A DNA stretch of 53,304 bases from Lentisphaerae bacterium GWF2_38_69 (GTDB lineage: Bacteria; Verrucomicrobiota; Lentisphaeria; Victivallales; GWF2-38-69), in contig MHBE01000061.1 in the NCBI GenBank assembly GCA_001803205.1, forward strand, positions 1-53,304, read 5' to 3'. Under the pieces are notes generated by a model. That model was not told the DNA's origin. It did no database searches and saw only the letters and a list, made by a program, of their open reading frames with translations. Shown here piece after piece: positions 44 through 18,989 of this stretch. The first letter of the stretch is position 1, and each line of letters starts with the position of its first letter. Made by a program: the position numbers and the translations under genes.

Positions 44-2803
44 ATGAATATTTTTAAACCATTTTTATATCAAGTCCACAATTTGTTACGCTGGCACAAA
101 TTTAATAAGCGGGTGAGGGCTTTTAATATGGAAGATGACAATGTTTTTGAAAATATGAATTATTGCGGCGCGCCTCGTGAGGAAAGCGAAATTTCAGGAA
201 GAGAAATTTTGAAAGAACCCACTCCCAGAGTTAAAAAAAATAGAGACCTCTATTTTGATGCGAAATCCTCTGCGTCTGTTGAATTTCCTTACTGGTACAC
301 AAGAAGATGGAATGAGTTAGATGGAGAGATTCCTATTGTGCGTAGAGCTGAGGCTTTGAAAGCCTCTTTCAGCCATTCGACTCCGGTTATCTATCCAGGC
401 GAACTGCTGGTTATGGGCAAAGCCTCCTATCTGAGGGGCTCTTATCCTATGCCATGGTTATCAGAGTCATATTTTATGGCGTCTGAAGACAAGATGTATA
501 AAGAGGCTCTTGAGTCGGGAAAACTCAGCGCCGATAAAGTGACAACCTGGGGCAAAGGCGGCGGAAATGTAACGAAAAGTACAGGCAATGTTATTTCTAT
601 AGCCGGTAAATTTGGAATTCGCAAGGAAGAGCTTGCCATCCTTATGGAAACAGCCCGCAAATGGCAGAATAAATCAGTTGATGATGTGGGACATAAATAT
701 GAGCAGGAAGTACCGGGATACAAAGAGAAAGAAGCAATAATGCGCTCAGTCATCTGTATGTTCGACTCAGGCTATACCCTTCCTCAGGGAAGAGAAGTAG
801 TCAATTATTATTATCCTCTCCAGTACGGAATAGATGGAATAATCGAAATATGCCGGAAAGCAATTGCAGAAGTTGCAGGATGCCCCGATATGGACAGACT
901 CTATTTCTATAAATCGGTAATAATAGTTCTAGAAGGTATTAAGGCATGGTTTCTGAACTATGCGAAGGAAGCTAGCTTCCTTGCTTCGATAGAATCTGAT
1001 CCCAAACAGAAAAAAGAATATCTCGATATTTCTGACAGACTCAAGAGACTTTCTTTCGAACCGCCACAGAGTTTTCATGATGCATTGCAGATGGTTTGGA
1101 CCTTCCACTGCGCCATACTCAATGAGGATTCTATTTCCGGTCTCTCTCCGGGAAGACTCGGGCAGGTGCTTTATCCTTTCTGGGAACATGATATGGAGAA
1201 GGGATTAATCGACAGGGAAAAAACTGTAGAGCTACTTGAGTGCATGAGAATGAAGTTCACCGAACTTGATTGTTTTGCGTCTATGGGAGTCGTGGGAGGT
1301 GTTCTTTCCGGAAATACATTTAACAACTTATGTGTCGGTGGACTAACCAAAGATAACAGGAGCGCTGCAAACGAGCTGGAAATGCTGATTCTTGAATCAG
1401 GAATGACCTGTGCTACTCCTCAGCCGACTTTATCGCTTCTCTACGATGAGAAACTGTCTGAAGATTTTTTGCTGAAGGGAATCGAATGCGTTAAAACAGG
1501 AGCTGGTTATCCAGCATGGGTAAATAATCATGTGGCAATGGAATTCCTTCTCAATAATTACTCGGATGAAGGAATGAAAAGCGAGGAAGTCAGAGCGTGG
1601 TCTATAGGAGGCTGCCTTGAAACCTCTCCGGGGTCATGGATGTCTCTAGACTACAACGGCAAAAAATACTATATTCCTGGCGGTTCTGCTCCGGCAACAA
1701 GTGTTGGAGTCCACTTTATTTCCCTGCCAAAATTGCTTGAAGTTGTCTTGTATAATGGAACAGATAAGCGAACAGGACAAAAAATATTTGAACCTCATAA
1801 TTGTGATTTGAGTTCATATGAAGGCCTCTGGTCTGCATTTCAGAAATATTTCAGACGAACAGTTGAAGTGCTTACTCTGACAAACAATATCCAGCACGAT
1901 GCCTGGCGGAAGGTGTCACCTTCACTTGTTAATTCGTTTATGAAACCTGACTGCCTTGACAAAGGGAAAGGGATTGGGGAAATGGGGTGCCGTTACAATA
2001 CTACTTTCAATGTTGAAATCTGCGGCGGGGTTAACCTTGTAAATTCTCTGGCTTCATTAAAGAAAAATGTCTATGAGGATAAGAAATTTTCACTGGAAGA
2101 TTACAAGAAAGCCATTGAATCAAATTTTGGATTTAAAACAGCTCAGGAATCAGGTTCTTATTCCCTCGTAGATCAGATACAGACAGAGGCTTATGATAAA
2201 TGGAAATTCATTCATAAAGCATCTCTCGAAGCTCCGAAATTCGGTAACGACGATAAATATGTCGATTCGATTTACAAAGAGTGGCAGGAGTGGTTCTGTC
2301 TAATGTGCCATGATTACAAATCATTATACAACAAACCACTGTATGCTTGCGAAATATCAGTTTCGACTCACGCTCCGATGGGAGCTGTGACTTTAGCTAC
2401 CCCTGACGGAAGGCTTTGCGGAACAACCTTTTCAGACGGTTCTGTTTCTGCTTATCCCGGAACAGACAAGAATGGTCCATATGCTCTCTTTAATTCGGCT
2501 CTTTGCTACAATCACTCGCTTGCCCAGAATTCACAACTTAATATGAAAATTCATCCGACAGTTATTGCCGGAAGACAGGGCGCTAAAAAATTCCTTGAGA
2601 TGATAAAAGCATACATGAGAAAAGGCGGTTTCCATGTCCAGTTTAATATTGTTGATTCCAGAATGCTCAAAGATGCTCAGCTTCATCCTGAAAACTATCA
2701 AGGCTTGATGGTCAGGGTGGCAGGTTTTACTCAGTACTGGGCTGAACTCGGCAAACAGATCCAGGACGAAGTAATCGCCAGAACCGAATACGGCAAAATA
2801 TGA
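44..2803 (+). CDS. hpdB: 4-hydroxyphenylacetate decarboxylase, large glycyl-radical subunit
   Basis: Glycyl-radical enzyme that decarboxylates 4-hydroxyphenylacetate to p-cresol. Visible features are the thiyl/acid pair in GGCLETS (Cys524, Glu526), the following IPGG and SVGVHFI segments, and the C-terminal radical loop RVAGFTQYW with Gly894, then IQDEV and RTEYGK. N-terminal stretches such as FPYWYTRRW, IPIVRRAEALKA and SGYTLPQGREV read like clostridial HpdB as I remember it. The 919-residue length is slightly above the roughly 900 usual. ATG 128, with GTGAGG upstream, would give 891 residues and is a credible alternative start. An indoleacetate or phenylacetate decarboxylase is possible, but an HpdC-like small subunit and an HpdA-like activase at 20.2-21.4 kb favour the 4-hydroxyphenylacetate enzyme. 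Partner genes normally follow directly; here a 17 kb island intervenes. The stop codon overlaps the next start (ATGA). Confidence 0.87.
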   Translation: MNIFKPFLYQVHNLLRWHKFNKRVRAFNMEDDNVFENMNYCGAPREESEISGREILKEPTPRVKKNRDLYFDAKSSASVEFPYWYTRRWNELDGEIPIVRRAEALKASFSHSTPVIYPGELLVMGKASYLRGSYPMPWLSESYFMASEDKMYKEALESGKLSADKVTTWGKGGGNVTKSTGNVISIAGKFGIRKEELAILMETARKWQNKSVDDVGHKYEQEVPGYKEKEAIMRSVICMFDSGYTLPQGREVVNYYYPLQYGIDGIIEICRKAIAEVAGCPDMDRLYFYKSVIIVLEGIKAWFLNYAKEASFLASIESDPKQKKEYLDISDRLKRLSFEPPQSFHDALQMVWTFHCAILNEDSISGLSPGRLGQVLYPFWEHDMEKGLIDREKTVELLECMRMKFTELDCFASMGVVGGVLSGNTFNNLCVGGLTKDNRSAANELEMLILESGMTCATPQPTLSLLYDEKLSEDFLLKGIECVKTGAGYPAWVNNHVAMEFLLNNYSDEGMKSEEVRAWSIGGCLETSPGSWMSLDYNGKKYYIPGGSAPATSVGVHFISLPKLLEVVLYNGTDKRTGQKIFEPHNCDLSSYEGLWSAFQKYFRRTVEVLTLTNNIQHDAWRKVSPSLVNSFMKPDCLDKGKGIGEMGCRYNTTFNVEICGGVNLVNSLASLKKNVYEDKKFSLEDYKKAIESNFGFKTAQESGSYSLVDQIQTEAYDKWKFIHKASLEAPKFGNDDKYVDSIYKEWQEWFCLMCHDYKSLYNKPLYACEISVSTHAPMGAVTLATPDGRLCGTTFSDGSVSAYPGTDKNGPYALFNSALCYNHSLAQNSQLNMKIHPTVIAGRQGAKKFLEMIKAYMRKGGFHVQFNIVDSRMLKDAQLHPENYQGLMVRVAGFTQYWAELGKQIQDEVIARTEYGKI

Positions 2804-3393
2804 ACTGCGATTCTGAAAATCATCATCGTCGGTCGATTCGATTGAAAGGGTATGATTATTCGCAGGATGGTGCGTATTTTGTGACAATATGCACATGCGA
2901 TAGGGCGTGTTTGTTTGGAAAGATTTCGAATGAGAAAATGACATTAAATGAATGCGGGGAAGTTGTTGATCGATATTGGAATGAAATACCACAACATTTT
3001 CTGGAGGCGGATTTGGATGAATACATAATTATGCCGAATCATATTCATGGGATTATTACGATTAAACAATTCGTAGGGGCGAAAGATTTTTCGCCCGATA
3101 CAAATCATTCGGCACAATCGATTTATTTTCCCGATACAAAAGGGGCGAAAGATTTTTCGCCCCTACATGCGACGGCACATGGCACATCAAAAACAATAGG
3201 TTCAATAATCCGCGGATTTAAAATTGGCGTTACAAAATGGGTTCGCAATGCCATGGATATTCGTGATGCTTGGCAACGCAATTATTACGAACATGTTATC
3301 AGGGATGATGACGATTTAACCAGAGTTCGGGAATATATAATTGAAAATCCCGCAAATTGGGCAATAGACAAAAACAACCCGAAACGGATATAG
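2800..3393 (+). CDS. REP-associated tyrosine transposase (RAYT, IS200-like Y1 family)
   Basis: Single-strand DNA transposase of the HUH/Y1 class, the type that handles REP palindromes. The N-terminus (HHRRSIRLKGYDY, then YFVTICT) is characteristic. The metal-binding HUH motif is in IMPNHIHGI. The catalytic tyrosine is expected in WQRNYYEHVIR, followed by the family tail REYIIENPANW. The start overlaps the hpdB stop as ATGA, so the gene sits exactly at the end of hpdB and could be translationally coupled to it. Between the HUH motif and the conserved GSIIRGFK segment the gene carries two in-frame copies of a REP-like palindrome, each encoding GAKDFSP. At 197 residues it is otherwise full length with no visible frameshift, so it may be active. 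Confidence 0.9.
   Translation: MNCDSENHHRRSIRLKGYDYSQDGAYFVTICTCDRACLFGKISNEKMTLNECGEVVDRYWNEIPQHFLEADLDEYIIMPNHIHGIITIKQFVGAKDFSPDTNHSAQSIYFPDTKGAKDFSPLHATAHGTSKTIGSIIRGFKIGVTKWVRNAMDIRDAWQRNYYEHVIRDDDDLTRVREYIIENPANWAIDKNNPKRI
3073..3166 (+). repeat. REP-like palindrome pair inside the RAYT coding sequence
   Basis: Two hairpins have stems GGGCGAAA (3077-3096) and GGGGCGAAA (3142-3163), each with a GATT loop and a perfect reverse-complement arm. The pair starts with GTAGGGGC and ends with GCCCCTAC, so the whole block has inverted ends like a BIME. A shorter repeated string, CCCGATACAAA, lies between them. Both copies are read in frame. Confidence 0.85.
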
Positions 3394-3399
3394 AAATTA

Positions 3400-6099
3400 A
3401 TGAAAGAACCTGAGAACAATCATTGTGAACTTAATCTGATTTTGCTTGAGAATGGAAATCTTGCTCCATCTTTTGAGGCTAAAAAAGAACTTTCATCTCA
3501 GCAGTTATCAACTCAGGAAAAGTTTTACAATTCATTTAAAGAAAATCCTGTAGAGGCATTGTTTCAATTGGGTTTTATGGAAACAAAGGGGATACTCTCT
3601 TCCACGCTGAATTTCTGGCACTGTTTTTCTCTGTTATTTGTCAATGCTCTAAGGTTAACTGAACATCTTGATATAAAAAGAGATAAAGTCGTAATACCCT
3701 TTGATGAAGAACTTTGTCTTAAACTGCTCTCCGATGCGCCATTTTTTACAGGAAGCGAGTTCCTGAACATAGAACTTTTAAGAAGATATTGGATTGAACT
3801 TGAGAAGTTTTATAGAGAGAAAATTAAAGACTATAAAGGATCAGCAGCAGACTTGCTCCGTAGTTATTCTGAACAGATAAATATTGCGGATAAAATCTAC
3901 TTTCACATGGTAGAAAATAAAAAAGGTTCATCAACTCCATTTGCATTTCTTGCGACTTACTCTTCAGGCTTAAACGATAAGGGAATTGCCACGCATAAAC
4001 CGCTCAAAGGAGTGATGGATGAATACTCCGGAAAGCAGTCAAAACTTGTGCAAATGTTGGGTTCTGTTTACAGAGTTGCCGGCAAAAGCTCTTATATTAA
4101 AAGCCTTCTGGATAATGGAGAGATTTTTTATCCAGTGGGAGTGGATACTTCTGAAGCTTTTACTTTTCTGAGCGAAACGCCGCTCTACGAAGAGTGCGGA
4201 ATTTTGTGCAGGATCCCAAACTGGTGGAAGAGCGCTAAAAAGGGCGTCAGGATCAAGGCAAAGTTTGGAAGCAAAGGCAGGTCTTTTCTCGGCAAGGAGG
4301 CGTTAGTGGATTTTAGCGCTGAATTGACATTTGACGGAATGCCTCTAACTCCCGAAGAGATTGAAAAGATTATTTCAGATTCCTCGTCCCTAGTCCTTAT
4401 AAAGGGCAAATGGGCGGCGATGGACAAAGACAAACTAAAAAGTACTCTCGATAAGTGGAAAGAGATACAATCCTTGATGAGCGATGGCGATTTATCTTTT
4501 GCGGAAGCCGCAAAAATAGCCTCTGGAATGGATGAAAACATTTCTTCGACTTTTTATGATGAGGGAACTCCTGTTGATTTTGAATTTGGAGATTGGATGC
4601 AATCTGTTCTTCAAAAAATGAAGAATCCGTCGGAGATATCATCCTTTAAGACAGGTGAAGGGTTTAAAGCTCAATTGAGACCATATCAGACTGACGGAGT
4701 CAACTGGCTTGGGTTTCTCTCTTCGATGAATTTCGGAGCGTGCCTGGCGGATGATATGGGATTGGGAAAAACTGTACAGGTAATAGCACTTCTTTCAGCT
4801 GAGTGTGAGAGCCAACTCAAAAAGGAAAGAGGCGTTAGCCTGCTTGTGGTTCCGGCTTCACTCATGCACAACTGGTCAGCAGAAATAAAGAAGTTCTGCC
4901 CTTCAATGAAATTTGTAATAGCCCATCCTTCAAACAAAGATCAATTCAATATTGAAAATCCCTCCGAAGATGAGATAAATAAATATACTTTAATCATAAC
5001 AACTTACGGTTTTGTCAGGAAATACAAACATTTTCAGGAACGGAAATGGAAATATGTGATTATTGACGAAGCTCAGGCGATAAAAAACCATTCCTCACAG
5101 CAGACAAAAGCAGTTAAAACCCTGAAAGCAGACAAACGCATAGCCTTGACAGGTACTCCGATTGAAAACACGCTCTGGGATTTGTGGAGCATCTTTGACT
5201 TCCTGAACCCGGGTCTGATGGGAAGCGCTGCTCAATTTAAGAGGCTGACTTCTGAAAAGAGCGAGCATGTTTATGGCAAAATTAGGAAAGTTATATCGCC
5301 ATATATTCTGAGAAGACTCAAATCGGATAAAAAAATAATTTCCGATCTGCCGGATAAGATTGAAATGGATACATTTACTAGACTCTCTAAGAAGCAGTTG
5401 ATTCTATACAGAAAACACCTTGATGAACTTACTTATTTGTTAGAAGAGAATGTTGAAGGAATTGAGAAAAAAGGTTTGGTTCTGGCAGCTATTATGAAAT
5501 TTAAGCAGATATGCAACCATCCTTCTCAACTAACTGGAGACAAAGAATATAGCGAATCAGACAGCGGCAAGTTTGAGAGGCTGCGCGAAATTTGCGAGGT
5601 TATTAGAGATAAGCGCGAAAAAGTACTTGTCTTTACGCAGTTTAAGGAAATGACAGAACCTCTGGATAATTACCTCTCATCTGTTTTCGGAGCTAAAGGT
5701 TTTTCTCTTCACGGAGCAACATCCATAAAGAAGAGGAAAGAGATGGTTGATTCCTTTCAGAGCGACGAATACTATCCTTATTTCGTGCTTTCGCTCAAAG
5801 CCGGCGGAACGGGTTTGAACCTGACAAAAGCTAATCATGTAGTGCACTTTGACAGGTGGTGGAATCCGGCTGTGGAAAACCAGGCTACAGACAGGGCTTT
5901 CCGAATCGGGCAAAAAAAGAGCGTGGTGGCTCATAAATTTATATGCGAAGGTACTTTTGAAGAGAAAATCGACGAGATGCTCAAGGAGAAAAGCAAACTC
6001 TCAAGAAGCATTCTCTCCGATGCTGACGGCCTGAATCTTACAGAATTAACTAACGATGAAATAATTAAACTATTTAAACCTGGAAATATTTATGAGTAG
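3400..6099 (+). CDS. SNF2-family DEAD/DEAH helicase
   Basis: Swi2/Snf2-type double-stranded DNA translocase of 899 residues. The N-terminal 400 residues resemble the bacterial SNF2-associated region. The motor starts near residue 430 with Walker A DDMGLGKT (451-458), then DEAQ (556-559), LTGTPIEN, and the C-terminal helicase motifs GGTGLNL, DRWWNPAVE and ATDRAFRIGQ. No nuclease or methylase domain is fused. It overlaps by 8 nt the SWIM zinc-finger gene that follows, a pairing common in bacteria. It is the first island gene after the transposase and is probably co-transcribed with 6092-6988. A chromatin-like remodelling or defence role is inference. Confidence 0.92.
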   Translation: MKEPENNHCELNLILLENGNLAPSFEAKKELSSQQLSTQEKFYNSFKENPVEALFQLGFMETKGILSSTLNFWHCFSLLFVNALRLTEHLDIKRDKVVIPFDEELCLKLLSDAPFFTGSEFLNIELLRRYWIELEKFYREKIKDYKGSAADLLRSYSEQINIADKIYFHMVENKKGSSTPFAFLATYSSGLNDKGIATHKPLKGVMDEYSGKQSKLVQMLGSVYRVAGKSSYIKSLLDNGEIFYPVGVDTSEAFTFLSETPLYEECGILCRIPNWWKSAKKGVRIKAKFGSKGRSFLGKEALVDFSAELTFDGMPLTPEEIEKIISDSSSLVLIKGKWAAMDKDKLKSTLDKWKEIQSLMSDGDLSFAEAAKIASGMDENISSTFYDEGTPVDFEFGDWMQSVLQKMKNPSEISSFKTGEGFKAQLRPYQTDGVNWLGFLSSMNFGACLADDMGLGKTVQVIALLSAECESQLKKERGVSLLVVPASLMHNWSAEIKKFCPSMKFVIAHPSNKDQFNIENPSEDEINKYTLIITTYGFVRKYKHFQERKWKYVIIDEAQAIKNHSSQQTKAVKTLKADKRIALTGTPIENTLWDLWSIFDFLNPGLMGSAAQFKRLTSEKSEHVYGKIRKVISPYILRRLKSDKKIISDLPDKIEMDTFTRLSKKQLILYRKHLDELTYLLEENVEGIEKKGLVLAAIMKFKQICNHPSQLTGDKEYSESDSGKFERLREICEVIRDKREKVLVFTQFKEMTEPLDNYLSSVFGAKGFSLHGATSIKKRKEMVDSFQSDEYYPYFVLSLKAGGTGLNLTKANHVVHFDRWWNPAVENQATDRAFRIGQKKSVVAHKFICEGTFEEKIDEMLKEKSKLSRSILSDADGLNLTELTNDEIIKLFKPGNIYE

Positions 6100-6988
6100 A
6101 TACGAAAGATATTCAAATTATGGTTATCCTGAATATGAGTCTGCAGCAGAACGCAGAGAAAAAGCAGTCAGGAATCTGGCTAAACTTCAATCAAAAGGTA
6201 AGCATGGAGATTTGTCTCCGATTGTTATTGAGGGAACGAAAATAGCTAAAAGCTGGTGGGGCAAGGCCTGGTGCGAAAATCTCGAAAGCTATGCTGATTA
6301 TTCTAATAGGATAGGCAGAGGCAGAAGTTATGTCAAGAACGGATTGGTTATAGATTTAAAAATATCCAAAGGACTTGTAACAGCGCTTGTTATGGGTTCA
6401 AGCTCAACTCCGTACAAGATTGAAATCAGCATAAAAACTCTAGAATCAAAGGTCTGGTCTAACCTCAAAGAAAAATTGAAGAATAAATTCGATTCGCTTC
6501 AGACTCTTCTTTGCGGAGAATTTCCTGAAGATCTAAAGCATGTCTTTTCTTCAAAAGACTTTGGTTTTTTCCCATCACCTAAAGAGATAAAAATGGATTG
6601 TTCTTGCCCTGATTATGCTAGCTTGTGCAAACATCTTGCCGCAGTTTTGTATGGAGTGGGAGCAAAACTCGACAGTAAATCCGAGCTCATCTTCACACTT
6701 CGCGGAGTAGATGTAAATGAGCTTACTGCATCTGTCATGGAAGAACAGAAAAAAGTCATAACCGAAAAAGTTACTAAAGCAAAGAAAAGCAAGAAGATAA
6801 TAGAAATAGAAGATACAGAAATGAGTGCTGTTTTCGGTATCGATATTCAAGTAGAGACACAAAATATTGCGTCTCCACCCGCAAAAAAGAAAGCTGCTCC
6901 AAAAAAGAAAGTCTCGGCGGCAAAAATAGAGGAAAAGAAAACAAAAGAACCCAAAATCAAACCAAAACGAACAGTAAAAAAGAAGTAG
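6092..6988 (+). CDS. SWIM zinc-finger protein with lysine-rich tail
   Basis: 298-residue partner of the upstream SNF2 helicase, overlapping it by 8 nt. The SWIM motif is visible as Cys170-x-Cys172, Cys179-x-His181 (DCSCPDYASLCKHLAAVLY), a DNA- or protein-binding zinc module. The N-terminal part contains AKSWWGKAWCENLE and a YVKNGLVIDL segment usual in this family. From about residue 262 the protein turns into a lysine/alanine/proline-rich tail (AKKKAAPKKK and similar), which looks histone-H1-like and should bind nucleic acid non-specifically. The function of bacterial SNF2-SWIM pairs is not well established; the pairing and motifs are what I can see. Confidence 0.9.
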   Translation: MSRYERYSNYGYPEYESAAERREKAVRNLAKLQSKGKHGDLSPIVIEGTKIAKSWWGKAWCENLESYADYSNRIGRGRSYVKNGLVIDLKISKGLVTALVMGSSSTPYKIEISIKTLESKVWSNLKEKLKNKFDSLQTLLCGEFPEDLKHVFSSKDFGFFPSPKEIKMDCSCPDYASLCKHLAAVLYGVGAKLDSKSELIFTLRGVDVNELTASVMEEQKKVITEKVTKAKKSKKIIEIEDTEMSAVFGIDIQVETQNIASPPAKKKAAPKKKVSAAKIEEKKTKEPKIKPKRTVKKK

Positions 6989-7015
6989 ACGCAACATTTT
7001 GCGTCTAAATTCAAT

Positions 7016-7459
7016 ATGAACAACCATAAAAACACTATGAAAATGACAAACAAACCTGCTAAAAGATGGATATTTACTGGACGAAAACCTGATAAGTTTA
7101 AAGCCGATGACTCTCTTAAGGAAAGAATCTCAAAGATGGCGAATGAACTGATCGATAAGAAGCTGAAACCAGAGTATGTAAAAGAATCGAATGTACACAA
7201 AGAATTCAACTATATTGTGGATTTATATTCAAAATGGGTAAGTGGGCGTTTCTACCTATGCGCAAAATACAGGTGTCCGTCAGAGAGAGCTATCAGCGAA
7301 TTCTTTGAAAGTAAATTTGCCAGAATAGAAGTTGTTAGTCCGGATAATTTTAATTTGTCTTACATGAGATATACCGGTCAATGGATTGAGCTGTATCCGA
7401 ACATAACTATTGAAGAATGTTTTCTAAACATAGAAACTGACCCATGGTTTCAACCTTAG
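7016..7459 (+). CDS. hypothetical protein (147 aa) following the SNF2-SWIM pair
   Basis: I cannot assign a named family. The protein is soluble, with a basic N-terminus (KPAKRWIFTGRKPDKF) and conserved-looking blocks FNYIVDLYSKWVSGRFYLCAKY, MRYTGQWIELYP and a C-terminal ETDPWFQP. No signal peptide or membrane segment is seen. It lies 27 nt after the SWIM gene in the same direction and may belong to the same transcription unit. The clean ORF and its ending in a tidy aromatic motif argue for a real gene. The initiator could be Met1, Met8 or Met10. Confidence 0.7.
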   Translation: MNNHKNTMKMTNKPAKRWIFTGRKPDKFKADDSLKERISKMANELIDKKLKPEYVKESNVHKEFNYIVDLYSKWVSGRFYLCAKYRCPSERAISEFFESKFARIEVVSPDNFNLSYMRYTGQWIELYPNITIEECFLNIETDPWFQP

Positions 7460-7490
7460 ATAGAAAGAATTCAAAGGAAGGTGTCTTAAA

Positions 7491-7604
7491 ATGACAAAAC
7501 ACAAATCAGCTGAATGCTGGGGTTTAAACGACTCTCTGTGTGTACAATGCATTATTAGGCGAAAGCGCGGATTGAATAAACGCACCGAATACGGCAAGTT
7601 ATAA
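7491..7604 (+). CDS. small ORF (37 aa), element/hpdB junction
   Basis: A short ORF with an upstream purine run (AAGGAAGG) encodes a peptide with cysteines at C9, C17 and C20 and ends in RTEYGKL. The last seven codons mirror the hpdB C-terminus (RTEYGKI), with 14 identical nucleotides. It may be a genuine small protein, or it may be a junction in which the original hpdB tail survives downstream of an insertion. I favour the second reading. Confidence 0.35.
   Translation: MTKHKSAECWGLNDSLCVQCIIRRKRGLNKRTEYGKL
7584..7597 (+). repeat. 14-bp direct repeat of the hpdB 3' end
   Basis: ACCGAATACGGCAA here is identical to 2783-2796 inside the last codons of hpdB. In both places it is read in the same frame (TEYG) and is followed within two codons by a stop. 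The two copies bracket the RAYT/SNF2/SWIM segment (about 4.8 kb), like a target duplication or attachment repeat. Confidence 0.5.
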
Positions 7605-7647
7605 GAGAACAAAGGCAAAGCTATGGAAGAAAAATGAAGAATTAAGA

Positions 7648-8625
7648 ATGAAAAGCAAAGAATTAAAGAGCGAAATACTAATTTATAAGACGGCTGATAA
7701 TAAGACTGAAATAGAAGTCCAGTTCGATAAAGATACTGTGTGGCTTACTCAGCAGCAAATGGCAAGTCTATTCAACCAGACCAAGCAGAACATAAGCCTT
7801 CATATCAACAACTGTTTTAAAGAAAAAGAGTTAAATAATATTTCAGTTGTCAAGGAATCCTTGACAACTGCTTCTGACGGGAAAAATTACCTTACAAAAT
7901 ACTACAACCTTGATGTGATAATTTCTGTAGGATATAGAGTTAAATCAATCAGAGGTACTCAGTTCAGACAGTGGGCGACCCAGAGGCTTAAAGACTATCT
8001 TCTTCAAGGATATGCTTTGAACGAAAAAAGGCTCAAAGAAAAGCAGCAGGAAATAGAGTATCTGAAGACTGGCATCCGTATTTTAAATCGAGCCATGGAA
8101 GAGCAGGTTCAGGAAAAGGATAGTTCAGAACTGAAACTTTTCTCAAAAGGCCTTGAGTTGCTTGACGACTATGACCATGAAAAACTTGATGCAAAAGGAA
8201 AAACTATCGCTACTAATGTCATATACCCTACAGTTTCTGAGTATTTGGATATTGTCTTTGAGATGAAATCAGAGTTTTCCTCGGATGTTTTTGCTAAACT
8301 AAAAGACGAGAGTTTTAATAGTTCAATTAACCAGATTGGACAAGGTTTCGGAGATAATGATTTATATCCTAGTCTTGAGGAAAAAGCAGCAACACTGCTC
8401 TATCTGATTGTCAAGAACCATAGTTTTGTTGACGGCAATAAAAGGATAGGAGCTGCATGCCTCATTTACTTCCTGAAAAGGAACAATTTGCTTCTTAATG
8501 ACAAAAATGAGCCGATTATCAGCAATGAGGCTCTGGCTGCTCTTACTATTTTCGTAGCCTCAAGTAAAAGCAAAGAGATGGACACTGTTAAAAAATTAAT
8601 AATAAGCATATTAAACAGAAAATAG
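7648..8625 (+). CDS. RhuM N-terminal / Fic domain fusion protein
   Basis: A 325-residue two-part protein. Residues 1-130 are RhuM-like: a winged-helix-like stretch VWLTQQQMASLFNQTKQNI, then YYNLDVIISVGYRVKS and RGTQFRQWATQRLKDY. Residues 215-325 carry a Fic/Doc fold with HSFVDGNKRIGA starting at His258; the last motif residue is Ala rather than the usual Arg (HxFxDGNxRxxR). Fic enzymes transfer AMP or related groups to protein hydroxyls, so the variant may be weaker or Doc-like. RhuM-Fic proteins are often found inside type I restriction loci, as here. Codons 66-75 contain a perfect 27-nt palindrome (see 7844-7870). Confidence 0.88.
   Translation: MKSKELKSEILIYKTADNKTEIEVQFDKDTVWLTQQQMASLFNQTKQNISLHINNCFKEKELNNISVVKESLTTASDGKNYLTKYYNLDVIISVGYRVKSIRGTQFRQWATQRLKDYLLQGYALNEKRLKEKQQEIEYLKTGIRILNRAMEEQVQEKDSSELKLFSKGLELLDDYDHEKLDAKGKTIATNVIYPTVSEYLDIVFEMKSEFSSDVFAKLKDESFNSSINQIGQGFGDNDLYPSLEEKAATLLYLIVKNHSFVDGNKRIGAACLIYFLKRNNLLLNDKNEPIISNEALAALTIFVASSKSKEMDTVKKLIISILNRK
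7844..7870 (+). repeat. 27-nt perfect palindrome (13-1-13) within RhuM-Fic gene
   Basis: Left arm CAGTTGTCAAGGA at 7844-7856, centre A at 7857, right arm the exact reverse complement at 7858-7870. It encodes SVVKESLTT, between the HTH-like part and the YYNLDVIISVGYR motif. The odd length with a single central base is typical of operators bound by homodimers. As RNA it would give a 12-bp stem with a 3-nt loop. Confidence 0.9.
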
Positions 8626-8662
8626 CATAAGTATAATCGAGGAAGAAAAGGATTGGATGTAA

Positions 8663-8932
8663 ATGAGTAAAATTACTGTAACGCAATTAAAGAAATATTT
8701 GGAGGCGAGGTCAAAGGAAGAATTGCTTAAAGAGATTACTGAACTATTTGGCAAATCAGAGAATGTGCAGGACTATGTCAACAGAACTTATAAATACTAC
8801 TATATCAGGAAGGCCATATCAGATAGAGGCAGTACGATCGATTTTGGAGGTTGTGGAAAAGAAAAGGAGAAAGTTTCTTCTTGTGATGGCCACGGGGACA
8901 GGCAAAACCCGTACATGTATGGCTCTGATTGA
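8663..8932 (+). pseudogene. 5' fragment of a DUF6155-like gene fused out of frame to hsdR
   Basis: The first 45 residues (KITVTQLKKYLEARSKEEL and LFGKSENVQDY) resemble, from memory, the N-terminus of DUF6155-type small proteins. After about codon 37 the reading frame simply runs over hsdR sequence in the wrong frame, giving a low-complexity tail to a stop at 8932. The best reading is a deletion junction near 8755-8785: the start of this gene remains, and its 3' part and the 5' part of hsdR are lost. Whether the 89-residue product is made is unknown. Confidence 0.6.
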
Positions 8933-11126
8933 TGTGCTTATGCGTTCAAACTGGGTTCAGAAGGTTCTGTTTCTTGTTGATAGAATAGCATTAAGAGAAC
9001 AGGCTTTAGATGCTTTTAAAGAGCATCTTCCAAACGCTCCGATCTGGCCAAAGCAAGGAGAACCTGAGTTTGCATCGGACAGGCGAGTTTATGTAGCTAC
9101 ATATCCATCAATGTTGAATATCATAGAATCTGAAGAGTGTCCAATTACTCCGCATTACTTTGATCTTATTGTTGCAGATGAGAGTCATAGGTCAGTTTAT
9201 AATATTTATAAAAATATCTTTGATTATTTTGATGCTCTTCAGTTAGGATTAACTGCAACACCAAAAAACTGTATTGATCATAATACATTCAAATTATTTA
9301 ATTGTGATGACGGTTTGCCTACTTTTGCATATTCCTATGAAGAAGCAATTAATAATGTTCCACCTTACTTATCAGATTTTGAAGTTATTAAAATCAGGAC
9401 ACGATTTCAGCAGGAAGGGATAAACAGTGCTACGATTGCTGAGGTTGATAAGAAAAAGCTTCTCTCTGATGGTAAAGATCCGGATGAAATAAGTTTCGAA
9501 GGTACCGAACTAGAAAAGAAAGTATCCAATAAAGGAACTAATGTTTTAATAGTCCGGGAATTTATGGAGGAGTCTATCAAGGATCCTAATGGAGTTTTAC
9601 CCGGTAAGTCAATATTCTTTGCGCTTTCCAGAAAGCACGCATATCGATTATGTGAAGTATTTGATTCGCTGTATCCCGAATATATGGGGAAATTAGCGGA
9701 AGTTATCATCTCTGATGTTAAAGGTGTTCACGGGAAGGGCGGAATTCTGGATCGCTTTAAGAATTCAGATATGCCCAGGATTGCTATTAGCGTTGATATG
9801 CTTGATACTGGAATAGATGTCAGAGAGGTAGTTAATCTTGTATTTGCCAAGCCAGTCTTTTCCTACACTAAGTTCTGGCAGATGATTGGAAGAGGAACAA
9901 GAGTTCTCGATCCAAGTAAGATAAAGCCGTGGTGCCCGGTGAAAGACAAATTCCTCATCATGGATTGCTGGGAGAACTTCGAGTATTTTAAAATGCAGCC
10001 TAAAGGAAAGGAAGCTAAACCAACTATTCCGCTGCCTGTAAGACTTTTTACTGCACGCCTTGATAAGCTTACTGCGGCTCTTGAGAATGCTGACAAGGTA
10101 ATAGAAAGCAAAACAGTTGTTAAAATACGAACTGACATAAATACCCTGCCTGAAAATTCTGTAGTTGTCCTTGATAACCGCAAATACCTCGATACTCTCA
10201 AAGAGGACACATATTGGAGTAGTATCACACCTGAAAAAATAGGCTATCTCAGATCCAATATAGTGCCGATAATGAGGGTTAAGTCGGATTCAGATTTCAA
10301 AGCTATGCGATTTGAGTTAGATATTGTGGAACTATCTACAGCAAAGCTTCGTGAGGATAAAGACCGTTTTGAATATCTAAAGGAAGGTGTTCTTGAAACG
10401 ATTCAAAAGCTTCCTTTAACAATTAACATTGTAGCAAAAGAAAAAGCGTTTATTGATAAGTTATCAGCTCCTTTATTCTGGTCTTCATGCACTGATGAAG
10501 ATCTTGACGAGGTTGTGATACGCCTTGCGCCCCTAATGAAATTCATAGATACTGCGTCTTTGCCTGAAACAACGCTCAACCTTTTAGATCTGCTGACAGT
10601 TAAAGACTATATAGAATTCGGCCCCGAACATGAGCGTCTGGCTGTAAATAAATACCGCCTTAAGGTCGAGGAGATAGTTTATAATCTTGTTAAGACAAAT
10701 AGGCCGCTTCAGAAACTTCTCAATGGTGAGGAGCTAACAGAATCAGAAATAGAAGCTCTTGCAGACACGCTAAAAAACAGTCATCCGAATATCACCGAAC
10801 AGGATCTCAGAGAAAGTTATGATAATAAGAGAGCAAAGTTTATTCAATTCATTAAGCATATACTTGGAATTGAACCCCTTGCTACTTTTACTGAAACAGT
10901 CTCTTTTGCATTTGAAGAATTTATAAGAGAGCATAACAACTACAGTCAACAGCAGATTACATTCCTTCTTACTTTAAAGTCTTTTATTATGCAAAAAGGT
11001 AAAGCTGAAAAGAAAGATCTAATAGATGCTCCATTTACTCAATTGCACCCCCAGGGAATCAGAGGCATTTTTAATGCCCAGGAAATTAATGAGATAGTCC
11101 AACTCATTCAGACCTTAGCCGCATAA
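8748..11126 (+). CDS. hsdR: type I restriction enzyme R subunit lacking its N-terminal nuclease domain
   Basis: EcoEI-like HsdR motor subunit. Present are SGRPYQIEAV, Walker A MATGTGKTRT beginning at codon 47, VLFLVDRIALREQAL, DESHRS, GLTATP, DTGIDV, QMIGRGTRV, and a C-terminal domain to residue 792. Only about 46 residues precede Walker A. Full-length HsdR has some 150-300 residues there, including the D/ExK nuclease, and these are absent. The start is weak (TTG 8748 or ATG 8763) and lies inside the overlapping out-of-frame remnant at 8663. As it stands the protein could at most be an ATP-driven translocase, so the locus probably methylates but does not restrict. The rest of the ORF is clean, so the lesion is recent or the shortened protein is kept. 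Confidence 0.85.
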   Translation: MANQRMCRTMSTELINTTISGRPYQIEAVRSILEVVEKKRRKFLLVMATGTGKTRTCMALIDVLMRSNWVQKVLFLVDRIALREQALDAFKEHLPNAPIWPKQGEPEFASDRRVYVATYPSMLNIIESEECPITPHYFDLIVADESHRSVYNIYKNIFDYFDALQLGLTATPKNCIDHNTFKLFNCDDGLPTFAYSYEEAINNVPPYLSDFEVIKIRTRFQQEGINSATIAEVDKKKLLSDGKDPDEISFEGTELEKKVSNKGTNVLIVREFMEESIKDPNGVLPGKSIFFALSRKHAYRLCEVFDSLYPEYMGKLAEVIISDVKGVHGKGGILDRFKNSDMPRIAISVDMLDTGIDVREVVNLVFAKPVFSYTKFWQMIGRGTRVLDPSKIKPWCPVKDKFLIMDCWENFEYFKMQPKGKEAKPTIPLPVRLFTARLDKLTAALENADKVIESKTVVKIRTDINTLPENSVVVLDNRKYLDTLKEDTYWSSITPEKIGYLRSNIVPIMRVKSDSDFKAMRFELDIVELSTAKLREDKDRFEYLKEGVLETIQKLPLTINIVAKEKAFIDKLSAPLFWSSCTDEDLDEVVIRLAPLMKFIDTASLPETTLNLLDLLTVKDYIEFGPEHERLAVNKYRLKVEEIVYNLVKTNRPLQKLLNGEELTESEIEALADTLKNSHPNITEQDLRESYDNKRAKFIQFIKHILGIEPLATFTETVSFAFEEFIREHNNYSQQQITFLLTLKSFIMQKGKAEKKDLIDAPFTQLHPQGIRGIFNAQEINEIVQLIQTLAA

Positions 11127-11185
11127 AATAGGGCAATTATTTTGATAAATAGGGTAAAATAGAATTGACATTACCCTATTATAAT
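11127..11185 (+). promoter_or_regulatory. operator-like half-site array upstream of fic
   Basis: Three related 10-mers occur: AATAGGGCAA (11127-11136), AATAGGGTAA (11148-11157) and the exact inverse TTACCCTATT (11171-11180). The first two are 21 bp apart as direct repeats; the second and third form an inverted repeat with a 13-bp spacer. A TATAAT (11180-11185) abuts the last half-site. This suggests a promoter repressed by a dimeric protein, perhaps the Fic protein itself through its C-terminal winged helix. Confidence 0.6.
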
Positions 11186-11224
11186 GATTTAATGCCCCAA
11201 TTAGATTTACAGGAGATTATTTTT

Positions 11225-12274
11225 ATGCAATCATTGAAAACATTATATTTAGAAGGTTTAAAATTTACAGAGCCACAAATTTCCACGCTTAAAACCTTAG
11301 GTGAATACAAGGGGAAACAGGCTCTCTTCTTCCATCAAACTCCGGAAATTCTCAATTCCCTGAAGCAGATAGCTATTATTGAATCAAGCGAGTCATCAAA
11401 TAGACTTGAAGGTATAACTGCCCCACATAAAAGGATTGAAGGGTTAATCGTTAAAAATACAGAGCCAAGAAACCGTTCGGAACAGGAGATCGCCGGATAT
11501 AGGGACGCTCTAAATCTTATCCATGAATCATCCATCCACATGGGCTTTTCAATAAATGTGATTTTGCAGCTGCATTCTATGCTTTACCGCTATATGAACA
11601 TTAATGCCGGGTGCTGGAAGCTTTCGGAGAATGAGATTGTAGAAAAGAATCCTGACGGCACAATTAAAAGAGTAAGGTTTAAACCTGTCTCTGCCTTTGA
11701 TACTCCCCGGGCGATGGACGAACTTGCAAAAAATTATGATACTGCAATCAATTCAAACAAAGAGCCAGCCGTAATACTTCCTCTTGCAATATTGGATTTT
11801 CTTTGCATCCATCCATTCAGTGACGGCAATGGAAGGGTTTCCAGACTGCTTACTCTTATGATGCTTTATCACTTTGGATATGAGGTTGGAAGATTTATAA
11901 GCCTGGAAAGGATTTTTGAAGAATCCAAAGAGACATATTATGAAACTTTGGAGAAGAGTTCATTTAATTGGCATGAAGGAAAACATGATGTGATGCCCTG
12001 GCTTAATTATTTCTGGGGTGTGATGCTTAGAGCGTATAAGGAATTCGAAGAAAGAGTTGGAGAAATCAGGACGGGAAAAGGCTCAAAGACTGAGCAGATC
12101 AAACAAGCTGTATTACGCAGAATAGGTCCATTTTCCATATCAGATATAGAGCACGATTGCGCAGGTATCAGCAGAGATATGGTCAGACTTATTCTCAGAC
12201 AGCTTCGTGATGATAATATTATTGTTCCTCAGGGTAAAGGCAGAGGGGCAAAATGGATAGTAGTTTCTAAATAG
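11225..12274 (+). CDS. Fic family protein with N-terminal inhibitory helix and C-terminal winged HTH
   Basis: A 349-residue Fic AMP-transferase-type protein. The active motif HPFSDGNGRVSR starts at His196 and is complete. The inhibitory motif S-x3-E-G is present at Ser58-Glu62-Gly63 (SNRLEG), the intramolecular class. The C-terminal 50 residues (ISDIEHDCAGISRDMVRLIL) look like a winged helix. I chose ATG 11225 because AGGAG sits nine bases upstream (11211-11215). An upstream TTG at 11165 would lie inside the inverted-repeat operator. The gene sits between hsdR and hsdM, a frequent place for Fic genes in type I loci. Its targets are unknown. Confidence 0.87.
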   Translation: MQSLKTLYLEGLKFTEPQISTLKTLGEYKGKQALFFHQTPEILNSLKQIAIIESSESSNRLEGITAPHKRIEGLIVKNTEPRNRSEQEIAGYRDALNLIHESSIHMGFSINVILQLHSMLYRYMNINAGCWKLSENEIVEKNPDGTIKRVRFKPVSAFDTPRAMDELAKNYDTAINSNKEPAVILPLAILDFLCIHPFSDGNGRVSRLLTLMMLYHFGYEVGRFISLERIFEESKETYYETLEKSSFNWHEGKHDVMPWLNYFWGVMLRAYKEFEERVGEIRTGKGSKTEQIKQAVLRRIGPFSISDIEHDCAGISRDMVRLILRQLRDDNIIVPQGKGRGAKWIVVSK

Positions 12275-12297
12275 TAATAAGGCATTGAAGGTAAATT

Positions 12298-13854
12298 ATG
12301 TTGACTTCAAATATGAAATCTCTGATAAACTCGCTCTGGAATAAATTTTGGAGCGGTGGTATAGCAAATCCTCTGACTGCTATTGAACAAATATCATATC
12401 TTCTTTTTCTCCGTCGTCTGGATGAATTGGATGCAAAACTCATTAGTGATGCAGAGTTCACCGGAGAGAAATATTCATCTATTTTTGATGGGAAGTTTAA
12501 GATCCCAAACACTAATGAAGAAATTGATAGAGCCTCTCTCAGGTGGAGTTATTTTAAACAGATGGAAAGCGGCGAGATGCTTCATCATGTCCAGATGAAA
12601 GTATTTCCTTTCATAAAGCAGCTTAACGGTACTAATACAGCCTTTGCAAAGCATATGCAGGATGCTGTTTTTATAATTCCGAAACCATCTTTGCTTGTCG
12701 AAGCTATCAGCATCATAGATCAGCTTTACGGAGAGATTGAGAAACAGATGAAGAAAGGACAGATGTTCCATGATACACAGGGGGATATGTATGAATTCCT
12801 TCTTTCTGAAATAGCATCAGCAGGGAAAAACGGGCAGTTCAGGACACCAAGACATATAATTCAGTTAATGTGCGAACTTGTTAATCCACAGCTTCCGGAG
12901 ACAGTCTGCGATCTCACAAGCGGCACAGGCGGTTTTCTCCTCGGGGCATATCAACACATACTAACTCAATACACTTCTGAGAAATATCAGCAAAAAGATG
13001 AAAATGGATTTATCAGAGGTACTCTTGGCGACAAGATAACAAATGAAAAACTCTGGAAGCATCTTAAGGAAAATACATTCTTCGGTTATGACTTTGATTC
13101 AACCATGGTCAGGATATGCCTGATGAATCTGCTTTTGCATGGTATATCTAACCCTAATATTGAAAGAAGGGATACGCTCTCAAAGAACTATAATGAAGAT
13201 TCCAAATACAATGTCATCCTTGCCAATCCTCCATTTAAGGGAAGCATAGACAAGGGAGACATTAATGATACGCTTTCACTGAAGACAACCAAAACAGAAC
13301 TTCTATTCGTCAACCGCATAATTAATTCTCTCTGCTCCGGCGGAAGGGCAGCCGTAATTGTGCCGGATGGTGTTCTTTTCGGTTCAAGCAATGCCCACAA
13401 GGATTTGCGGAAAATGCTTCTTGAAAAGTGTGAACTCCAGGGAGTTATTTCGATGCCTTCAGGAGTATTCAAACCCTATGCCGGAGTCAGCACTGCTATA
13501 CTGGTATTTGTCAAAGGCGGAACGACTGAAAAGGTCTGGTTCTATGATATGCACTCAGATGGATACTCTCTTGATGATAAAAGAGATAAACTCGAAACTA
13601 GCGATCTGCCCGACATCGTTAAGGATTGGAAAGTCAGGCATAAATCAGATAATAGTGATCGCAAAGCTAAACACTTCTTCATTCCAATAAAAGAAATACT
13701 TGACAATAACTATGATTTGAGTATCAACCGCTACAAGGAAATCGCCTACGAACAGCCTGTTTACGATAAACCGGAAGTGATACTGGATAAATTGGAGAAG
13801 ATTGAGGAAGAAATTTCCTCTGATCTCAAACAATTAAAGGAAATGATTGGATGA
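12298..13854 (+). CDS. hsdM: type I restriction-modification system methyltransferase subunit
   Basis: N6-adenine DNA methyltransferase subunit of a type I system, 518 residues, full length. The N-terminal HsdM helical domain is present (NPLTAIEQISYLLFLRRLD). The SAM-binding motif I is DLTSGTGGF at residues 205-213 and the catalytic NPPF is at 310-313. It forms M2S with HsdS and methylates the asymmetric target. Its stop overlaps the hsdS start (ATGA), indicating translational coupling. It shows no damage, in contrast to hsdR. Confidence 0.95.
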   Translation: MLTSNMKSLINSLWNKFWSGGIANPLTAIEQISYLLFLRRLDELDAKLISDAEFTGEKYSSIFDGKFKIPNTNEEIDRASLRWSYFKQMESGEMLHHVQMKVFPFIKQLNGTNTAFAKHMQDAVFIIPKPSLLVEAISIIDQLYGEIEKQMKKGQMFHDTQGDMYEFLLSEIASAGKNGQFRTPRHIIQLMCELVNPQLPETVCDLTSGTGGFLLGAYQHILTQYTSEKYQQKDENGFIRGTLGDKITNEKLWKHLKENTFFGYDFDSTMVRICLMNLLLHGISNPNIERRDTLSKNYNEDSKYNVILANPPFKGSIDKGDINDTLSLKTTKTELLFVNRIINSLCSGGRAAVIVPDGVLFGSSNAHKDLRKMLLEKCELQGVISMPSGVFKPYAGVSTAILVFVKGGTTEKVWFYDMHSDGYSLDDKRDKLETSDLPDIVKDWKVRHKSDNSDRKAKHFFIPIKEILDNNYDLSINRYKEIAYEQPVYDKPEVILDKLEKIEEEISSDLKQLKEMIG

Positions 13855-15032
13855 ATATCAGAGAAGTAAAGCTTAATGAAATTGTAAATATATATTCCGG
13901 ACAAGGAGCCCCAAAAGAGTTTAGTGAATATGGTAGACCATTTATACGAGCAGGCTCTTTAGAAAAATTACAAAATGGAGATAGTGAGTTTACATGCGAG
14001 CTACTAAATAATGAATTGGCAGAAAAATATAAAATGAGTTTATATCCTAAAAATTCAATTGTTTTCCCCAAAAGCGGCATGTCTGCAAAAATTGGTAGAA
14101 TTTATAAGCTAAAAAATGATTGCTATGTAGTTAATCATTTAGCTGTTGTAGTATCTAACAATAAAAACAAAGTGGATCCTTCGTATTTGGGAAAATGGTT
14201 TTACTACAATCCGCCTTCTAGATTAATTGCAAACGATTCTTATCCATCAATAAAGTTATCGCAACTTAACAATATTCAAATTCTACTCCCAACTTTACCC
14301 GAACAAAAGCAAATAGTTGAAATTCTCGATCGTGCCGATTCTTTGCGACAAAAACGCCGCGAATCAATAAAACTCCTCGATGAATTTCTCCGCTCCACCT
14401 TCCTCGAAATGTTCGGCGAATTTGAAAAGAAAAAATGGCCTCAATTAAAAATGATAGATCTGGCTAAAAGAAAGAAAGGAAGCATGAGAACTGGTCCCTT
14501 TGGAAGTTCTTTGCTTCATAGTGAGTTTGTTAAAGAGGGTATTGCAGTTTTAGGAATAGATAATGCTGTAGAAAATTACTTTACTTGGAAGGAACGAAGA
14601 TTTATTACTCCTGAAAAATACGAAAAATTGAAACAATATACAGTTTATCCCGAAGATATAATTATAACAATTATGGGTACTTTAGGTCGTTCTGCTGTCG
14701 TACCTGACAATATACCAACAGCAATTAATACAAAACATCTTGCGTGTATTACTATTGATAAAAAAATTGCTAACCCATATTTTGTTGTTTATTCAATCCA
14801 GTCTGATCCTGATGTTGTACATCAACTCAATAACAAACGAAGAGGTGCAATAATGGATGGATTAAATCTTACAATTATCAAACATCTCAAATTTAATCTG
14901 CCTCCATTAGCTTTACAGGAAACATTTGTTGGAATAATGAAACAGACTGAAGCCCTCAAGAAAAAGCTAGAGACAAGCCAGATCGAACTCGATAATCAAT
15001 TCAACGCCCTCATGCAAAGGTACTTTGGATAA
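13851..15032 (+). CDS. hsdS: type I restriction-modification specificity subunit
   Basis: 393-residue DNA-recognition subunit with the expected two target-recognition domains. TRD1 spans about residues 1-145. The central conserved helix begins at LPTLPEQKQIVEILDRAD and runs to LDEFLRSTFLEMF. TRD2 spans about 200-345 and starts with a TGPFGSSLLHSEF motif. The C-terminal conserved helix begins LPPLALQETF. Overlaps hsdM by 4 nt. Intact, so the pair should still produce a methylation pattern. Confidence 0.94.
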   Translation: MNIREVKLNEIVNIYSGQGAPKEFSEYGRPFIRAGSLEKLQNGDSEFTCELLNNELAEKYKMSLYPKNSIVFPKSGMSAKIGRIYKLKNDCYVVNHLAVVVSNNKNKVDPSYLGKWFYYNPPSRLIANDSYPSIKLSQLNNIQILLPTLPEQKQIVEILDRADSLRQKRRESIKLLDEFLRSTFLEMFGEFEKKKWPQLKMIDLAKRKKGSMRTGPFGSSLLHSEFVKEGIAVLGIDNAVENYFTWKERRFITPEKYEKLKQYTVYPEDIIITIMGTLGRSAVVPDNIPTAINTKHLACITIDKKIANPYFVVYSIQSDPDVVHQLNNKRRGAIMDGLNLTIIKHLKFNLPPLALQETFVGIMKQTEALKKKLETSQIELDNQFNALMQRYFG

Positions 15033-15035
15033 CTT

Positions 15036-16457
15036 ATGGATTGGATTAAGATATCAAAGATTTTATTGAAATATTGGTATGCCAAAACTACTTATTGGTT
15101 TTTGATGTTTTGTCTCGTTATATGGAGTGTTGCTTTGTATTTATTTTATATTTCAATATCCCAAATTATATGCGAAGCGATACAGTCTATAAGTAAGTCA
15201 ATTCTGATTAAGACAACAGGTATAGTATTTATAGTCGGTATCTTGTTAATAGTATTATTTTGGTTTAGATCGAGAAAATTGCCAAAATACAAAAAGGGTG
15301 AAATTGGAGTTTTATTTGCGCCATTTAAGGCTAACGGAGAATGTGATCCTGAGATTGTAGATTTATCCAAGAGACTACAGTTCGATCTGTTATCTAGAGA
15401 AGGAATGGATAATGTCATATGCAATAGACTTCCATTTAATCATATGATAACAAACGATAATGAAGCAAAAAAATTATTGGAAAACACAAAGGCATCAATA
15501 ATCATTCACGGTAAATTTGACCATGGGAATTTAAATAATAAAGAAGTCAAAGGATTTTTAAGTATCAGCTTTACTGTTTGGGGATTGAACTGGGGAATAC
15601 TCAAAGAGTCTGAAAGATCTTTTATTATAGGCAGCATTGGGCCAAGACAATTTATCTCTTTTAATGAGAATAGTTTTAAAGATGAAGACATTGTTGTTAA
15701 TAATATAAATGACTTAAGCTTATATCTTATTTCATTGAGCTTTATTCTTAATAGAGACGTTAATAAAGCCATAGAAATTCTAGATGGGTTAAGAAATAAA
15801 CATATCGCATCGAATAATCGGAATATTAAAAGGTTTATTATAGGGATTAATTCTCACTTGACATTCTGTTATGACTTTTTGATTAACAAGTTATATAAAG
15901 ATCAAATCATAGTCAATATTACTCAATCTCATATCAATAATCATATGAGTCAGTTTCTTGAATTTACTAGAAAGAGATTAGCTGTATCTAATGATAACAT
16001 TTCTTATCATTTAGCCATGTCCATCTACAACTTTCATTCTATGAATATAGACAAAGCCAAAAGCAGCTTATCTAGAATAGAAATTACAGATAAAAGTGAT
16101 AATAATTTCCATCTAAAAAATATCTCTTTAGCTTTTTTGCATATGTGGGAAATAAACTACAAGAGAAGCCTTGAGTTTTATAGGAAAAGTAGCTATTGGA
16201 TGAAGAAAATTTCCAAGGATGAAAATCTCAAAAAGATAACAGACGATGTTCTTATATTTATTGAGTCAGTTTTACTGGTTAATCCAGACAAATATTATTT
16301 GTATTTTTCGATGGGTTTCATTAGTGAACATTGTAACAAGGAAGAAATAGCTCTTTCCAATTATCGAATTTTCTTAGAAAAAAATCAAGGCGTGGATAAT
16401 GCATTAAAGCAACATGCAGATAAATATTTAGCAAAACATGTTACTCTTATAGAATAA
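15036..16457 (+). CDS. membrane-anchored helical-repeat protein, candidate defence component
   Basis: No named family recognised. Two hydrophobic segments near the N-terminus (about residues 20-41 and 56-77) predict a hairpin anchor. A mixed alpha/beta domain follows from about residue 88 (GEIGVLFAPFK, later ASIIIHGKFD), faintly like the TolB/FlgO-type N-terminal fold. Residues 230-473 are helical and TPR-like, for example the block ending EIALSNYRIFLEKN. It starts 3 nt after hsdS and ends 8 nt before an Abi_C gene, so the three are probably co-transcribed. I infer a membrane sensor or effector partnered with the Abi_C protein; this is not established. The coding sequence is more AT-rich than its neighbours. 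Confidence 0.75.
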   Translation: MDWIKISKILLKYWYAKTTYWFLMFCLVIWSVALYLFYISISQIICEAIQSISKSILIKTTGIVFIVGILLIVLFWFRSRKLPKYKKGEIGVLFAPFKANGECDPEIVDLSKRLQFDLLSREGMDNVICNRLPFNHMITNDNEAKKLLENTKASIIIHGKFDHGNLNNKEVKGFLSISFTVWGLNWGILKESERSFIIGSIGPRQFISFNENSFKDEDIVVNNINDLSLYLISLSFILNRDVNKAIEILDGLRNKHIASNNRNIKRFIIGINSHLTFCYDFLINKLYKDQIIVNITQSHINNHMSQFLEFTRKRLAVSNDNISYHLAMSIYNFHSMNIDKAKSSLSRIEITDKSDNNFHLKNISLAFLHMWEINYKRSLEFYRKSSYWMKKISKDENLKKITDDVLIFIESVLLVNPDKYYLYFSMGFISEHCNKEEIALSNYRIFLEKNQGVDNALKQHADKYLAKHVTLIE

Positions 16458-16465
16458 GGTATCAA

Positions 16466-17221
16466 ATGAATATCTATGATGGAATAAATACTGATTATGA
16501 TAAGGCCGTAGCTTTAGTTAGAATTCTAGAGTCATGTGCTACGGGTGGGGAAAGGCACGAAAATAAGTTTATTGAAATTCGGGGATATTTTTATCAATCA
16601 CCGAAATATAAGAATTATATGCCAAGATGGATGAATTCTATTTTTACAATTAATAATTTTTGGAACTTCATCAAACCCAAATTTAATCACTATTTCGAGA
16701 GAAGAGATTTTATATCGTCAGAGTTTACTCCTCTAATAAATCACTGCAATGAGCAGAGTTCTTTAATCCAAAATCAAAATGTGATAATAACTGATTTCAA
16801 TAGCTATGTTATTAATGAGAACTGGACAAATATGTTAGCCAGAGTAGAAAATGATCCTAAAGGAGCAATTACTTTAGCTAGGTCTTTGGTTGAAAGTGTT
16901 TGTAAACACATTCTTGATGATCTATTGGAAAACTATACAAAAGATGAGTTGCTTGCATCGTTATATAAAAAAGCCGCTAAAATATTAAACCTTACTCCAG
17001 AACAACATGATATTCAGATTATTAAAAACATCTTAGGTGGATGTAGTAGTATTGTGAAAGGTTTAGAAGAGTTTAGAAACATCTATGGAGATGCTCATGG
17101 AAAAGGCCAAAATCAATCAAATCCTCTTTCTAGGCATGCCCGTCTTGCAGTGAATGCATCCGGCACATTATGCTTATTCCTAATAGAAACTTTCAATCAT
17201 AACAAAGCCAGTAGGGAATGA
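16466..17221 (+). CDS. Abi_C (abortive infection C-terminal) domain protein
   Basis: 251-residue protein. Its second half (about 112-251) matches the Abi_C pattern: ITLARSLVESVCKHILDD, a LYKKAAKILNLTPEQHD block, ILGGCSSIVKGLEEFRN, GDAHGKG, and a C-terminal RHARLAVNASGTLCLFL. This domain is associated with phage abortive-infection proteins, but its biochemistry is not settled. The N-terminal 110 residues are of unknown type. It is 8 nt downstream of the membrane/helical-repeat gene with the same low GC, so the two look like one unit inserted after hsdS. Confidence 0.82.
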   Translation: MNIYDGINTDYDKAVALVRILESCATGGERHENKFIEIRGYFYQSPKYKNYMPRWMNSIFTINNFWNFIKPKFNHYFERRDFISSEFTPLINHCNEQSSLIQNQNVIITDFNSYVINENWTNMLARVENDPKGAITLARSLVESVCKHILDDLLENYTKDELLASLYKKAAKILNLTPEQHDIQIIKNILGGCSSIVKGLEEFRNIYGDAHGKGQNQSNPLSRHARLAVNASGTLCLFLIETFNHNKASRE

Positions 17222-17256
17222 TATGGATCCAATAACGGGCATAAGCTTAATCCTAA

Positions 17257-17278
17257 CTTTGATACCTTTCTATCAAAG
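17257..17278 (+). other. inverted repeat between abi and rhuM genes
   Basis: CTTTGATA (17257-17264) and its exact reverse complement (17271-17278) are separated by 6 nt. No T-run follows, so it is more like a protein site or mRNA hairpin ahead of the RhuM gene than a terminator. Confidence 0.4.
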
Positions 17279-17315
17279 AGAAAGGGATAGCTTTGATTTA
17301 ACTTAAATTAATAAT

Positions 17316-18308: not shown

Positions 18309-18313
18309 AACAA

Positions 18314-18457
18314 GTGCCGCCACACCCTGCAGTAGGCTCACGGAAAGGGACAAAGTTTTTAACTAAGATTGATACAGGTGCAAAAAAGACAGCGAAATAT
18401 AGATTGCCATCAGGTGAGATGACAGACTTTTTATTTGCAGAAGGCAAATGCAAATAA
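18314..18457 (+). CDS. possible small GTG-start ORF (47 aa)
   Basis: Begins 5 nt after the rhuM stop and encodes a basic peptide containing GSRKGTKFLTKIDTGAKKTA and LPSGEMTDF. The codon pattern looks coding, but there is no clear ribosome site and I do not recognise the family. It could be the 3' remnant of a larger gene. Confidence 0.3.
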   Translation: MPPHPAVGSRKGTKFLTKIDTGAKKTAKYRLPSGEMTDFLFAEGKCK

Positions 18458-18935: not shown

Positions 18936-18989
18936 TATATTAGAGACAAAGTGAAATATTTTTATAGATAAATATTTGAGAAAGTTAAG

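Follow-up and report, generated by a model that had tools for sequence, protein, structure and literature searches.

An EcoEI-type hsdR lacking its nuclease domain, fused out of frame to the start of a DUF6155 gene

Positions 8663-11126 of the window (the whole 53,304-nucleotide stretch of DNA analysed here, from Lentisphaerae bacterium GWF2_38_69) contain the start of a DUF6155 gene and, fused to it out of frame, an EcoEI-type hsdR gene that lacks ~147 N-terminal residues. The missing part includes the D...ExK nuclease (PF04313). We consider it likely that a recent deletion produced this arrangement, leaving a type I system that would have lost restriction (R-) with modification retained (M+), and an HsdR remnant that may not be translated. 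The features of the locus are:

7648-8625, plus strand: RhuM/Fic-domain protein, directly upstream with a 37 bp gap (PF13310, 8.6e-27; PF02661, 1.6e-10; PADLOC candidate PDC-S23, 1.7e-118)
8663-8776, plus strand: DUF6155 gene start, 38 codons long and with a plausible ribosome site of its own; the remainder of the gene is missing (identity over codons 1-40; ribosome-site energy)
8776-8778, plus strand: putative deletion junction; TAT 8774-8776 is the last DUF6155-homologous codon and TCA 8778 the first hsdR-homologous codon (alignments on both sides)
8777-8932, plus strand: out-of-frame tail of the DUF6155 frame, crossing the first hsdR motor codons to TGA (8930) (translation)
8775-11126, plus strand: hsdR with a complete SF2 motor and a complete EcoEI-type C-terminal domain but no nuclease domain (PF04851, 3.8e-41; PF08463, 9.6e-28)
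11165-12274, plus strand: Fic protein between hsdR and hsdM (PF02661, 5.8e-14)
12298-13854, plus strand: hsdM, intact, NPPF at residue 310 (PF02384, 3.5e-61; PF12161, 1.2e-15)
13851-15032, plus strand: hsdS, full length, two target-recognition domains (PF01420, 2.2e-24, two stretches; PADLOC Specificity_I, 8.6e-74 over 6-392)

Extent of the hsdR truncation

The hsdR frame (8748-11126) has no stop codon inside it; its translation opens with MANQRMCRTMSTELINTTISGRPYQ, and the Walker A motif, ATGTGKT, is at codon 48. Alignment to full-length HsdRs shows that the hsdR-homologous stretch runs from S-T-E-L-I-N-T-T-I-S-G-R-P-Y-Q (TCA 8778) to the stop codon. The gene has the SF2 motor and EcoEI_R_C domain of a type I EcoEI-type HsdR, with the motifs ATGTGKT, DESH, TATP and QMIGRGTR all present, and neither the gene nor the window encodes the N-terminal PD-(D/E)XK nuclease; a search of the window for traces of a nuclease domain found none left.

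We compared the gene with HsdR homologues from eighty close relatives (one genome per species) and three from related genomes; 80 could be scored, and these are 56-71% identical to the window hsdR. The N-terminal part (~140-170 residues) is in frame in 78 of the 80. As for the two exceptions, one homologue (L050) is cut by a contig end, and the other (L090) carries its N-terminal part in another frame. We considered L090 as a second deletion and rejected it, as it has a single frameshift at the nuclease-motor linker; among the 80 homologues there was no second case of a nuclease-removing deletion. The L090 frameshift lies near 5977-5986, the N-terminal part is 77% identical to L116, and the interruption may be a sequencing error or a real separation. 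The loss of the nuclease from hsdR, which had been proposed in a preliminary description of this DNA, is borne out by the alignment to full-length EcoEI-type HsdRs.

The nearest relative (L038; Candidatus Omnitrophota, JAHFFM010000037.1; 71% identical) shares with the window the arrangement of the EcoEI-type family, in which hsdM and hsdS lie downstream of the SF2 motor and EcoEI_R_C in the same orientation. In L038, homology to the window hsdR begins at about residue 147, HSDR_N (PF04313) occupies residues 57-123 (E 5e-11) and the motor runs from residue 160, whereas the window gene is without this nuclease-bearing N-terminus and has the DUF6155 start in another frame instead. The counterpart of window residue 20 in the Vibrio vulnificus HsdR fragment 3h1t is residue 178. 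The L038 domain layout and the 3h1t alignment together show that the missing segment is the nuclease domain and that the break lies very close to where nuclease and motor meet.

Across 205 near-invariant columns of the motor and C-terminal domain, the window differs from the 80 relatives at one (I to V), which is also the median of the intact relatives. A structure model of the truncated HsdR, of moderate confidence only (mean pLDDT 78, pTM 0.47), matches HsdR and other SF2 motors.

The junction and its probable origin

The homologies to DUF6155 and to hsdR meet within ~2 bases, between 8776 and 8778. The upstream frame (8663-8932) opens with MSKITVTQLKKYLEARSKEELLKEITELFGKSENVQDY. Its codons 1-40 are about 48-53% identical to DUF6155 proteins from cyanobacterial plasmids and one related genome, and past about codon 38 it resembles DUF6155 no further. 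In tblastn searches, the DUF6155 start gave E-values down to 1e-9 against single loci and 3e-4 across all plasmids. The Pfam match covers only the first 38 of 170 DUF6155 (PF19652) positions rather than the full domain of ~170 residues, with a score under the cut-off, as is expected of a fragment. Where the preliminary description had a DUF6155-like start of 45 codons, the fusion itself stands and its length by homology is ~38 codons.

The best explanation is a single deletion, which would have started at codon 39 of the DUF6155 gene and ended near codon 147 of a downstream hsdR. It would have taken the PD-(D/E)XK nuclease domain together with hsdR's own start, and joined the remainder out of frame. 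The resulting system would be unable to cut (R-), with HsdM2-HsdS still methylating its target (M+), and the HsdR remnant, translated or not, would keep an intact motor and C-terminal domain. DUF6155 and hsdR would have adjoined before the deletion; the fetched flanks of the hsdR homologues contain no DUF6155, and no type I genes were found near two DUF6155 genes of related genomes. The whole genome has no intact DUF6155 gene, and the junction sequence had no match in viral contigs.

The deletion is probably recent, since decay of the motor has not begun. Had the protein drifted freely after the deletion, the one change observed (95% upper limit 4.7/205) would correspond, by our own estimate, to at most ~2% amino-acid divergence. 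This leaves two readings of the undecayed motor, a recent deletion or continuing selection. We favour the former, and regard the fusion as a type I system in ordinary, probably recent decay.

The main alternative, which we regard as unlikely, is an assembly or binning artefact: DUF6155 and hsdR would in reality both be intact, and the piece between them would have been dropped or mis-joined. The junction is known from one draft assembly of one sample (66 contigs, 95% complete), and such a truncation is rare among the homologues. However, a chimeric join would usually leave the missing halves elsewhere in the assembly and neither was found there, and an artefact would need the whole piece to have been lost exactly at the junction.

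We also searched the whole genome with PF04313, PF13588 and the N-terminal part of a relative (L043). PF04313 matched inside three full-length HsdRs (contigs C43, C1 and C5) and in a short piece on C17; PF13588 had no match anywhere in the genome. No segment matching the lost nuclease occurs elsewhere in the genome, which we count in favour of the deletion. Nor did the genome-wide search find a free-standing nuclease subunit, the observation that the preliminary description had named as contrary to its reading, and the truncation stands.

The short piece (G000 C17:34349-34522, minus strand; L124 3350-3523) is an HsdR remnant of 46 residues, closed by a stop codon, and lies upstream of a RhuM gene. 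It is of the same HsdR subfamily and 80% identical to a Pelosinus HsdR (L068). We rejected it as the missing half: it stops after residues 1-46, and its clade is a different one, the window motor being nearest to L038. It is another decayed type I locus of the same genome.

Expression of the remnant and the neighbouring genes

The possible hsdR starts that are left (TTG 8748, ATG 8763 and ATG 8775) all lie inside the DUF6155 frame, and ribosomes starting at DUF6155 pass them out of frame. The ribosome-site energy is fair for the DUF6155 start (-5.4 kcal/mol), whilst the three hsdR starts (-1.5 to -2.9) are near the median for random positions (-2.2). Because these internal starts have no convincing ribosome site, the HsdR remnant is probably made poorly. 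Weak ribosome sites are also seen on other genes here, and a promoter and terminator scan gave nothing exceeding chance.

A second alternative is that HsdR, though without its nuclease, still works as a motor and is selected as such: it would block invading DNA by non-cutting translocation from unmethylated sites, or serve the neighbouring Fic/Abi genes. The motor is fully conserved, and there is a precedent for motor activity having consequences of its own: the nuclease point mutant of EcoKI does not cut, yet hydrolyses ATP and translocates, and it is toxic to hosts lacking ClpX, killing them by motor activity alone (PMC4231737). A motor-only HsdR would therefore not be inert, if made. Nevertheless, we think a selected motor very unlikely here: its conservation is explained equally well by a recent deletion, the internal start is without a good ribosome site and is read across by the DUF6155 frame, and the 80 homologues offer no second such deletion. 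In particular, continued production of the truncated HsdR, under selection for its action as a non-cutting, methylation-guided translocase that hinders foreign DNA by its motor alone, is highly improbable.

A role for Fic finds no support in the relatives. A homologous Fic between hsdR and hsdM is present in L050 (61% identical) and in L078 (47%), and in L078 the nuclease domain is intact beside it. Since the L078 Fic adjoins a nuclease-bearing hsdR, the hsdR-Fic association is independent of nuclease loss. Neither reuse of the motor by the neighbouring Fic/Abi genes nor an anti-restriction device, both suggested earlier, is supported.

The type I genes belong to a defence-type run (2800-20212) that also includes a SNF2 and SWIM pair, two RhuM genes, Fic, and AbiJ-like and AlbA-like genes. 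It is flanked by a glycyl-radical enzyme (44-2803) and by small-subunit/activating-enzyme-like genes (20213-21405), an arrangement that looks like the insertion of an island into the operon of the glycyl-radical enzyme. The gene directly after hsdS (15036-16457; 473 residues) has no Pfam or PADLOC match.

That another HsdR in the genome provides the nuclease in trans, and the system still cuts, is extremely unlikely: three more full-length HsdRs are present (C5, C43 and C1), but they have their own motors, the two that match the window motor are only ~27-34% identical to it, and the genome searches found no free-standing nuclease subunit.

Modification genes and known parallels

The recent deletion that we favour would leave modification untouched. 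By their Pfam matches, the conserved columns of hsdM and the PADLOC match of hsdS, both sequences look intact, as first described; of 98 near-invariant columns, hsdM differs at one, like its intact relatives, and the hsdS start overlaps the hsdM stop. The locus thus encodes both the HsdM N6-adenine methylase with NPPF and the two-domain HsdS of a type I system. Type I cleavage requires the HsdR nuclease, and M2S1 methylates without HsdR (PMC6158711, PMC12707154); with the nuclease domain lost, an R-M+ state is expected. The window system is probably cleavage-null, judging from the absent nuclease domain, and methylation-proficient, judging from the intact-looking hsdM and hsdS. Methylation without cutting, as the preliminary description supposed, is supported as an expectation from these features.

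Nuclease-dead EcoKI (D298E/D298A, PMC4231737) is comparable in that the motor of the window HsdR would be expected to be active without cleavage. The EcoKI proteins, however, are laboratory point mutants in which the domain is present and translation is normal, whereas in the window the domain is missing. Natural R-M+ systems have already been reported. In Staphylococcus epidermidis, natural interruption or truncation of hsdR accompanies loss of restriction; in strain BPH0736, hsdR is interrupted by IS elements, hsdMS is intact and restriction deficiency was confirmed (PMC6918075). There, as in the window, a natural event broke hsdR, and BPH0736 likewise keeps its hsdMS; the S. epidermidis genes are IS-interrupted or truncated, whereas the window deletion takes the nuclease domain alone and leaves the motor frame open.

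For the source genome, one should not conclude from type I methylation at this locus that restriction is active. The locus is one more case of restriction lost before modification, and would be of greater importance only if the undecayed motor proves to be expressed, given the toxicity of EcoKI translocation (PMC4231737).
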